Shown: piece by piece, positions 61,862 through 63,648 of the stretch | Numbering within the stretch: position 1 is the stretch's first letter | Layout: every line of letters starts with the position of its first letter | From: Methylotenera versatilis 301 | GTDB taxonomy: Bacteria > Pseudomonadota > Gammaproteobacteria > Burkholderiales > Methylophilaceae | Length of the DNA: 64,000 nucleotides | Reading direction: 5' to 3' | Assembly: GCF_000093025.1 (NCBI RefSeq) | Contig: NC_014207.1 | Location: 2,232,001-2,296,000 of the forward strand | Notes under the pieces: model-generated | The model's input: only the letters and a program-made list of their open reading frames with translations | Told to the model about the DNA's origin: nothing | The model's database searches: none | Made by a program: the position numbers and the translations under genes

Positions 61862-61987
61862 AAATAAATAGAATTCTCTTTCGTAATGGAAATTGTCTGC
61901 AATCGGGAAGCCAAAAGCAGTCAGAACAAACTGGTACATTCGACCCTATATAGTCACTCCATCCTGTTTTCAGCGATACTAATCACA

Positions 61988-62172
61988 ACTGGCAGGTAGC
62001 TGTCAGTGAAGACAGGACATGCACCTGCGGATTACGAATATTCGACCCTAACACTCGATGTTTTCCGCTTTGGCTTCGAGTCCGCAGGTGCGCTTGGGTT
62101 TATTAACGAATACTCAGGGCTCGCCGCACAACCGGCTCGCTATATTGGCTTCGCAAAACCCAGCATGCATGT
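61988..62172 (+). ncRNA. Predicted bridge (seeker) RNA of the IS110 element
   Basis: A 5' hairpin CTGTC/GACAG (62000-62015) is followed by a large stem-loop with perfect 11-bp stem (62021-62031/62081-62091) and a second with stem TGGGTTT/AAACCCA (62095-62101/62156-62162). Both loops carry ACGAATA at the left (62034, 62106) and TGGCTTCG at the right (62071, 62146), framing guides TTCGACCCT and TCCGCTT in loop 1, and CTCAGGGCT and CTATAT in loop 2. Loop 1 guides match the flanking target; loop 2 guides match the element ends. Transcription ends are not defined. Confidence 0.8.
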
Positions 62173-62206
62173 CCATATTGATAATCTACCACTAGTGGAG
62201 ATGATT

Positions 62207-63478
62207 ATGAAGACGCAATCTACACATTCTTTTACTGCTTTTATTGGCATTGATTGGGCCGACAAGAAGCATGATTTCTGTTTACTAGCTGCTGGTGCAG
62301 AACAACGGGAATTCGGAACCTTTGACCATACGCCTGAAGCCATTGCCTTATGGGCAAAGGCCTTGCATGATCGCTTTGATGGACCAATTGCGATCTGCCT
62401 TGAGTTATCCAAAGGCCCCTTGGTTTATGCGCTGCAGCGGTGTCCGTTTCTGGAGATATTTCCAGTACACCCGTCTACACTTGCCAAATACCGAGAAGCC
62501 TTCGTCCCCAGCCATGCCAAAGACGACCCAACGGATGCTGAAATGGCACTGGAGATATTGCTGCGTCACCCAGACAAGCTGGATCCTATCCAGTTGCAAA
62601 GTTCGCCTATGCGCATCTTGTCCAGACTCGTCGAAGAACGACGTACTTTAGTGAATGACGTGATAAGCATCACCAATCGTTTAACCAACGCACTTAAGCA
62701 ATACTACCCGCAAGCATTGGACTGGTTCGAGCATAAAGATACCTTGATATTCTGTGACTTTCTGAGCCGCTGGCCAACCCTCAAGCAGGTTAAACAGGCA
62801 AGACAATCCACGCTCGAATCATTCTTCCACCAGCACAATGTACGCCGTGCTTATCTCATTGAAAGACGTATTCAGGGGATTCGATCTGCAACTGCGTTGA
62901 CAGATGACGAAGCCGTGATTCGGCCCTATCAGATGGTCGTACAAGCGATGGTTGAACAATTACGCGCTCTATTACTAGCCATCGACCATTTCGATACTGA
63001 AATCGATCAGATTGCTAAAAGCCTGCCAGATTATGATTTGTTTGCCGCTTTACCTGGTGCGGGACATATCATGGCGCCTAGACTATTGGTTGCCTTTGGT
63101 GAGGAGCGTGATCGATATACCAATGCAGCGCAGATCCAGCGATATTCTGGTGTCGCGCCAGTGGTCGAGCGCAGCGGTAACAAGTGCTGGGTACATTGGC
63201 GTATCGCCTGTCCAACATTTTTAAGACAGACCTTTGTGGAATGGGCAGGTTCTACCATTCCTAGATCGTTCTGGGCTGGCGCTTACTATCAGCAGCAGCG
63301 TAACAAAGGCTGTTCTCACCGTGTTGCAGTTCGAGCCTTGGCATTTAAGTGGATTAGAATCCTCTATCGTTGCTGGGAATCAAGAATACCTTATGACGAG
63401 TCTATTTATTTAAACTCGCTACGACGCAGAGGTTCACCCTTACTAACAAACCTGTCGGAAAATGCAAAAATAACTTGA
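62207..63478 (+). CDS. IS110-family transposase (DEDD recombinase)
   Basis: 423 residues from ATG 62207, which has GGAG six bases upstream (an ATG at 62201 lies within that spacing). The RuvC-like domain has Asp in FIGIDWADKKHD, Glu in CLELSKGPL and paired Asp in AKDDPTDAEMA. The C-terminal Tnp domain contains LPGAGHIMAPRLLVAFG and a Ser-bearing segment (IQRYSGVAPVVERSG). Cuts and joins DNA with bridge RNA guidance in the family. Right end of the element follows the stop by only about 17 bases. Confidence 0.93.
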   Translation: MKTQSTHSFTAFIGIDWADKKHDFCLLAAGAEQREFGTFDHTPEAIALWAKALHDRFDGPIAICLELSKGPLVYALQRCPFLEIFPVHPSTLAKYREAFVPSHAKDDPTDAEMALEILLRHPDKLDPIQLQSSPMRILSRLVEERRTLVNDVISITNRLTNALKQYYPQALDWFEHKDTLIFCDFLSRWPTLKQVKQARQSTLESFFHQHNVRRAYLIERRIQGIRSATALTDDEAVIRPYQMVVQAMVEQLRALLLAIDHFDTEIDQIAKSLPDYDLFAALPGAGHIMAPRLLVAFGEERDRYTNAAQIQRYSGVAPVVERSGNKCWVHWRIACPTFLRQTFVEWAGSTIPRSFWAGAYYQQQRNKGCSHRVAVRALAFKWIRILYRCWESRIPYDESIYLNSLRRRGSPLLTNLSENAKIT

Positions 63479-63600
63479 CGGAGTGACTCAGGGCGCGAAG
63501 CGGACTTACGTAAACCTAACATAGAGGTTATCTTTTTGAGAAACACTTAGTACAAATGTCTGATGAGTCTACTTAAGCTTTTAGGAAAAATCAGCATAAG

Positions 63601-63626
63601 AAAAAGGCCGCAAAAGCGACCTTTTT
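63601..63626 (-). terminator. Terminator after the autotransporter gene
   Basis: AAAAAGGCCGC-AAAA-GCGACCTTTTT is a stem with one G-T-type mismatch; on the minus strand it ends in five T residues, just after the autotransporter stop. Confidence 0.7.
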
Positions 63627-63648
63627 ATAACTCACTAGAAAGTTAAAG

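Follow-up and report, generated by a model that had tools for sequence, protein, structure and literature searches.

A new IS110-family element in Methylotenera versatilis 301 with a predicted bridge RNA whose guides track target sites among relatives

Introduction

The 64,000-nucleotide stretch of Methylotenera versatilis 301 DNA analysed here (the window) contains, close to its right-hand end, an element for which a preliminary description had proposed that a bridge RNA can be read directly from the left end, with four guides matching the ends and flanks. This raises the question of whether the matches reflect RNA-guided choice of the insertion site and, if so, where the target ends and the element begins. 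We favor, at a probability of roughly 95%, an IS110-family insertion sequence that looks intact and is mobilized through recombination guided by a bridge RNA. The class of mechanism is already known and the element is a new member of it; its subfamily differs from the description of IS621 in the core, the closing helix and the end repeats. The features are listed in Table 1.

Table 1. Features of the element and its flanks, in window positions.
Feature	Position	Strand	Basis or remark
IS110-family element, 1,550 bp, TATAGT to CTCAGGGCGCGA	61949..63498	+	copies in G000 and G027, empty sites of relatives
Left target TTCGACCC and target core dinucleotide TA (61947-61948)	61939..61948	+	same as loop-1 guide
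TATAGT, -10-like box of would-be junction promoter; TATAG is the right donor, complementary to 62140-62144	61949..61954	+	
Left arm of 9-bp subterminal inverted repeat (AGTCACTCC)	61952..61960	+	
5′ stem-loop of predicted bridge RNA	61962..62017	+	single-sequence fold only; absent from consensus
Outer closing helix, 62016-62022 with 62167-62173, enclosing both loops	62016..62173	+	covariation
Target-binding stem-loop, 62023-62038 with 62075-62089; inner mini-hairpin 62050-62053 with 62059-62062	62023..62089	+	
Left target guide TTCGACCC, then TA facing the core	62041..62050	+	tracks left flank in relatives
Right target guide TCCGCT, then UU facing the core	62064..62071	+	tracks right flank in relatives
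Donor-binding stem-loop, 62092-62101 with 62156-62164; 62107-62110 with 62150-62153	62092..62164	+	
Left donor guide CTCAGGGC	62113..62120	+	same as 63487-63494
Right donor guide CTATA, then UU facing the core	62140..62146	+	complementary to TATAG 61949-61953
Transposase/recombinase, 423 aa, DEDD (PF01548) and Transposase_20 (PF02371), G--P----SG motif	62207..63478	+	
TTGACG, -35-like box, 18 nt from TATAGT over joined ends	63475..63480	+	sequence
Right arm of 9-bp subterminal inverted repeat (GGAGTGACT)	63480..63488	+	
Right end: left donor CTCAGGGC, GC, donor core GA	63487..63498	+	G027 right junctions
Right target AGCGGA	63499..63504	+	flank; other copies AGCGGA, AGCAGC or TGCAGA

Results

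The transposase and the extent of the element

The transposase has the domain organization of the IS110 family, a DEDD/RuvC domain (PF01548) with a C-terminal PF02371 domain containing the conserved SG. Its score against NF033542 ('IS110 family RNA-guided transposase') is 143.1 bits, a little over the cutoff of 140, and the only solved structures matched at E ≤0.001 are those of ISCro4 (E 9.7e-6) and IS621 (E 3.5e-4); together with the two domains, these matches bear out the proposed family assignment. The motifs GIDWADKKHD, ICLELSKG, HAKDDPTDAEM and GVAPVVERSG, taken to include the catalytic residues, are located in the protein. Only 20 nt of the element remain 3′ of the stop codon. The SG motif of the C-terminal domain of the family is described in the text of PMC11187229.

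The genome is a single contig of 3,059,871 bases and holds a second, near-identical copy (1,564 bases aligned), in which GCCGACCC-AA precedes TATAG on the left and GCGA is followed by AGCGGA on the right. Several further copies, cut at contig ends, are present in a sister genome of the same genus (G027). Three of its left junctions read CGACCC-AT, CGACCC-AA and CGACCC-TA before TATAG, and four right junctions read CTCAGGGCGCGA followed by AGCGGAC, AGCAGCT, TGCAGAG and TGCAGAC (pattern [AT]GC[AG]G); the 12-base right end is identical at these four and the flanks beyond it differ, and the dinucleotide preceding the element varies from copy to copy. It is apparent from this comparison that the sites fit the guides, that the two bases before TATAG are derived from the target, and that GCGA is a constant end of the element. 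The ends in Table 1 were set by comparing left and right flanks of the copies in G000 and G027, together with the empty sites of relatives described below.

All of the matches in the preliminary description are real, but its boundaries move by one base at each end. The A at 61948, which it counted as the left end, belongs to the target, and the A at 63498, which it counted as the start of the flank AAGCGGA, belongs to the element, because the same-genus copies vary at the former position and are constant at the latter; AAGCGGA was rejected as the flank for this reason.

Two further observations concern the surroundings. Near the second copy (L002, 860-965) there are more pieces resembling its flank and right end (ATTGGGTCGGCAGTGATGATT, GTCACTCAGGGC). 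In the window, an inverted repeat at 63601-63634 with T's after it resembles a terminator, and short stretches similar to it are present in about 15 genomes of the genus.

Four guides in a conserved fold

Sequence comparison establishes the target sites, guides, ends and predicted RNA fold. In loop 1, TTCGACCCT is present at both 62041-62049 and 61939-61947, and TCCGCTT (62064-62070) complements AAGCGGA (63498-63504), as originally claimed. In loop 2, CTCAGGGC at 62113-62120 repeats 63487-63494, the next base being T rather than G as had been noted, and CTATAT (62140-62145) complements ATATAG (61948-61953). The reported common frame, ACGAATA...TTCG, is found in both loops. An IS110 element is expected to have a long non-coding left end that is structured and whose target and donor loops match its flanks and ends, and the window element conforms to this. 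The left donor guide is nearly constant among relatives, and L053 has CTCAGAG in loop and right end alike. Two extra bases separate CTCAGGGC from the core at the right end (GC in the window; GT, AC or AT elsewhere), so that the distance to the crossover is 2 nt longer for the donor guide than for the target guide (63487-63498 versus 62113-62123).

Positions 61960-62200 fold at -81.5 kcal/mol against a shuffle mean of -61.7 (z = -4.47), and none of 200 shuffles folds as well. The fold was aligned over 18 left ends, taken from 25 representatives less than 90% alike with the seven Colwellia-type ones excluded. The consensus has 43 pairs, 22 of them with compensatory change, and 96.4% of cells are paired, compared with a mean of 84.1% for shuffles and 28.6-39.3% for slid controls. 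In the outer helix, 5 of the 7 pairs are changed on both sides yet remain paired (99.2% of cells); its first two bases also belong to the 5′ stem-loop of the single-sequence fold. Compensatory change is found in 9 of 15 pairs of the target-binding stem and in 5 of 8 pairs of the outer donor-binding stem, the inner four donor-binding pairs being invariant. A scan against Rfam gave no match. Covariation, the additional copies and the empty sites of relatives all agree with a left-end bridge RNA that has target and donor loops and four guides.

Guides and flanks among relatives

The search for relatives yielded 93 loci, 80 kept of 113 found in genome contigs and 13 in viral contigs. The guide test took 84 of these, omitting partial ones (L072, L077, L078, L081, L090, L091, L093, L094 and L095), and added the window element, the second copy and seven E. 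coli loci to give 93 rows; 80 were readable, and the other 13, in which a left end or loop was not found or the two were oddly spaced, were excluded. On the left, the six flank bases adjoining the core were scored against the element's own guide in the best of three registers. Among 49 distinct pairs, 33 fit at 6/6, eight at 5, four at 4 and four at 3, whereas flanks set against the guides of other elements average 3.1, and none of 10,000 permutations, which ignore relatedness, reached the observed sum. The guide classes that fit at 6/6 are CGACCC, TGACCC, GAGCGA, GTGCCA and TACCAC, and L017 (TTAGCT) fits at 5. On the right, scored by Watson-Crick pairing at the best position within a 16-nt stretch, 19 of 27 distinct pairs fit at 5/5, seven at 4 and one at 3 (0 of 10,000 permutations, again ignoring relatedness). 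There are four types of right flank and guide: AGCGG/CCGCT, TGTTA/TAACA, TGCGG/CCGCA (L079 only) and GGTTA/TAACC (L033 only). The guide matches exceed chance, because relatives with other guides mostly have other, matching flanks.

Loop-1 guides that fail to follow their flanks at other sites had been named in advance as evidence against a bridge RNA. They follow them at 5-6/6 in 41 of the 49 pairs and poorly in eight (L018, L022, L053 and L076 at 3/6; L012, L025, L033 and L043 at 4/6), and in Colwellia-type elements the left guide fits the flank only in part. L043 (Rahnella bonaserana) carries a GTGCCA guide at a GAGCGA site, which is either mis-targeting or a guide altered after insertion. 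In Noviherbaspirillum autotrophicum, the left flank is the same in L006, L007 and L076 (GGGGCGGTTCA) and does not fit their CGACCC guide; L006 and L007 have a left end without its first part, and L008 of the same species is cut by the contig.

Empty sites and the nature of the target

Comparison with empty sites in related genomes, suggested at the outset, gives three exact ones in E. coli, where the relatives are labelled IS110 or ISEsa2 family. These are GTCCGCTCTGTGCCA-GG-AGCGGACATTG (L190, against occupied L182), GTCCGTTGTGAGCGA-GA-AGCGGACATTG (L195 and L196, against L186) and GTCTGCTATGAGCGA-AA-AGCGGACTTTACC (L197 and L198, against L187). They fix the crossover: at all three chromosomal sites of these enteric relatives the insertion lies exactly 3′ of the dinucleotide, with no base lost or duplicated, as in the specific insertion typical of IS110, and the right junction is GA. 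Two of the three (GG and AA, versus GA) are informative about the fate of the core. Comparisons of L188 with L199, L200 and L203, and of L184 with L201 and L202, are unusable as empty sites because a different sequence follows directly after the hairpin. In all five of the E. coli loci L190-L194, the side downstream of a gene that is GTPase-type or hypothetical ends, at about 660-690 of each locus, in a hairpin GTCCGC...GCGGAC; four different sequences follow it directly (L193 resembling L194), as if at a module boundary.

No empty site was found for the window's own insertion, the nearest candidate (L179) being a degenerate relative of another site. Exact search of the same genome for CGACCCN{0,8}AAGCGGA found none, a search there for an ortholog of the L157 flank was likewise negative, and the ortholog of the L155 flank ends about 100 bases before the insertion, so that it offers no empty site. 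The empty target predicted earlier, TTCGACCCTAAGCGGA, is the same string under the corrected boundaries, and its parse becomes TTCGACCC-TA-AGCGGA; its central part, CGACCCTAAGCGGA, is present uninterrupted in same-genus genomes. In 37 such genomes (own included), CGACCCN{0,6}AGCGGA occurs 39 times against 63 in a backward control and is thus rarer, and only its spacing is special, being exactly two bases in 25 of 39 (counted by hand). Several of these 25 uninterrupted CGACCC-NN-AGCGGA places in the genus have AAAGCAGAC about 27 bases upstream.

With G-T pairs counted, the bases preceding the left target can pair at 6-7 of 7 positions with those of the right target in 37 of 71 sites, compared with 7.7% for shuffled flanks, so that about half of the targets are small hairpins in which the left guide reads the loop. 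The sites of the window element and of the second copy show no clear hairpins (5/7 and 4/7). Palindromic repeats are known as targets of insertion sequences (PMC1525189); a literature search for this target repeat found no paper that looks relevant among the titles listed.

The core dinucleotides

The core had been given as CT, which does not stand: near-identical copies carry AT, AA or TA before TATAG, and the right-end dinucleotide is GA. The rejected CT lies one base too far left, the window element having TA on the left and GA on the right, and the IS621-type arrangement of CT at both ends is not found. The variation before TATAG in near-identical copies implies that both bases are target-derived and that the top-strand crossover would fall after the second, i.e. 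after 61948 on the left and after 63498 on the right. According to the text of PMC11208158, IS621 has CT at both ends and is cleaved on the top strand after positions 8-9; the cut position is the same as for the window element and the core differs (PMC11208158, PMC11208160).

Both ends could be read at 72 distinct sites, and at 53 of them the left and right dinucleotides are unequal. The main type accounts for 62 sites, with GA (61) or AA (1) on the right, and the left is AA (19), GA (19), GG (9), TT (4), AC (4), AT (3), TA (2), AG (1) or TC (1); the ten Colwellia-type sites have CT (8) or TT (2) on the left and GT (9) or AT (1) on the right. The reverse pattern, with the left constant and the right varying, is absent among the 72 sites. 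Facing the core, the right target guide has UU in main-type sites (UC in one), AG in nine of the Colwellia type and AU in L053; the right donor guide has UU there in 62 of 62 main-type sites, AG in 9 and AU in 1. The preference for purine cores is not independent support for the UU reading, because unoccupied repeats are also often AA. In this subfamily, the cores apparently need not match: the dinucleotide of the target would be kept at the left junction and that of the element at the right. Our tentative reading is that A and G cores are tolerated through U-A and U-G pairing and that the surviving product is the top-strand one.

Predicted junction promoter and subterminal repeats

Across 72 pairs of ends, a TTG[A/T]C box lies 17-18 nt from the -10-like box in 54 and 14 nt away in 5, and none was found in 13. 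The 9-bp subterminal repeat is perfect in the window, and L053 and L079 also match at 9/9 with other letters. Among 36 distinct end pairs the mean match is 6.9/9, compared with 5.5 for mismatched ends (0 of 10,000 permutations, relatedness uncorrected), and five of the 36 match at only 4-5/9.

Relation to known systems

The bridge RNA of an IS621-type element is transcribed, about 177 nt long and bound by the recombinase. The window element resembles IS621 in its domains, its left-end RNA and the order of guides (LTG-RTG, then LDG-RDG), as well as in the would-be junction promoter, the predicted top-strand crossover after the core and the palindromic repeats among targets, as set out in the text of PMC11208160 and PMC11208158. 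By the same texts, the IS621 protein has 326 aa rather than 423, and its core is CT at both ends rather than NN (target) and GA (element). The IS621 text, figures aside, describes a 5′ stem-loop and two stem-loops with no helix closing both, in contrast to the closing helix here, and the 9-bp subterminal inverted repeat is a further difference; the text of PMC11208160 gives 2-3 bp for the IS110 group.

ISEc21 and other IS110-type seekRNA elements likewise carry a non-coding region upstream, with target matches that follow the same order in the RNA, and the transposase cluster of ISEc21 spans 345-385 aa, whereas 423 aa falls within the 395-455 aa of the IS110 subgroup (text of PMC11187229). The same text places identifiable subterminal repeats in the IS1111 group, those elsewhere being absent or short and imperfect, and reports natural re-targeting of IS1111-type elements, which is also seen among relatives of the window element. 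The likeness to IS1111 covers RNA-guided target choice and subterminal inverted repeats, with 9 bp lying within the 7-17 bp range of that group. The IS1111 RNA is downstream of the transposase, in contrast to the upstream position here (61962-62173), and its repeats are usually 11-13 bp with 7- and 3-bp extensions, versus 9 bp with extensions of 3 and 10 bp (PMC11187229, text).

Another close group is ISEsa2 ('IS110-like element ISEsa2 family transposase' in RefSeq/PLSDB), with a transposase about 50% identical (H18, H20). The ISEsa2-labelled E. coli elements L186-L188 share the loop frame ACGAATA, the type of right end and the kind of target with the window element, and differ in the left guide, GAGCGA versus CGACCC; GTGCCA is the guide of another enteric group, which carries just the label 'IS110 family'. 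The papers that name ISEsa2 seem to be surveys of genomes. The literature searched, which includes the text but not the figures and supplements of the 2024 papers (six further elements are drawn in PMC11208160), holds no description of a subfamily with such a core, helix and repeats.

Discussion

By analogy with IS621, transcription of the RNA, circle formation, binding and catalysis may be envisaged as follows. Joining of the ends would create the promoter TTGACG-N18-TATAGT, which would transcribe the left end. Loop 1 of the RNA would recognize a short target, TTCGACCC-NN-AGCGGA, by pairing with each of its two strands, and loop 2 would pair with the joined ends of the element itself (CTCAGGGC...GA-TATAG). 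The DEDD/serine recombinase would then cut the top strands directly after the core dinucleotide and swap them.

Two explanations would dispense with guided targeting, and we regard both as very improbable. The junction sequences could be fixed ends of the element, the guides then matching these ends and not a chosen target; all five left flanks in G000 and G027 share CGACCC and four of six right flanks start with AGC, as this would have it. Uninterrupted sites of that form in other genomes speak against it, relatives with other guides mostly have other, matching flanks, the right flanks vary within G027, and three exact empty sites of relatives contradict it; counting the flanks as part of the element was rejected. 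Alternatively, the left end of an ordinary IS110 element could be a regulatory leader or attenuator with guide matches arising by chance. The non-coding regions of such elements can regulate transposases, and two small RNAs reportedly regulate ISPpu9; yet both guides track the flanks (0 of 10,000 permutations each), and the left ends share a common fold with compensatory changes.

A different challenge, directed at the core and not at the bridge RNA, is that the unequal dinucleotides are not the recombination core, with the true two-base stagger at another place, such as immediately 3′ of the crossover, and the ends simply fixed. The two extra right-end bases (GC, GT, AC or AT) favor this, since they make the donor register 2 nt longer than that of the target. 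Against it, the top-strand cut after positions 8-9 in IS621, as given in the text of PMC11208158, falls at the same place as here, and the RNA bases track the class of dinucleotide (UU with mostly AA, GA or GG; AG with CT or TT; AU with TT), although these classes also follow phylogeny. We consider this alternative unlikely, at something like one chance in a few. A more far-reaching reading, to which we give a little under even odds, is a natural subfamily of bridge recombinases whose two cores are not identical and are mostly purines, with UU opposite them in both right guides (G-U wobble being permitted), and in which insertions are resolved to the top-strand product, with the target's dinucleotide on the left and GA on the right.

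Many natural insertions, together with three exact empty sites of relatives, allow the guides of this predicted bridge RNA to be checked. Since the donor and target cores are unlike, each natural insertion also preserves a record of the strand from which the surviving core came; IS621, having CT at both ends, offers no such record. If the reading of non-identical cores is correct, identity of the core would be dispensable, and processing of the second strand would be biased or would take place at the position of the first cut.
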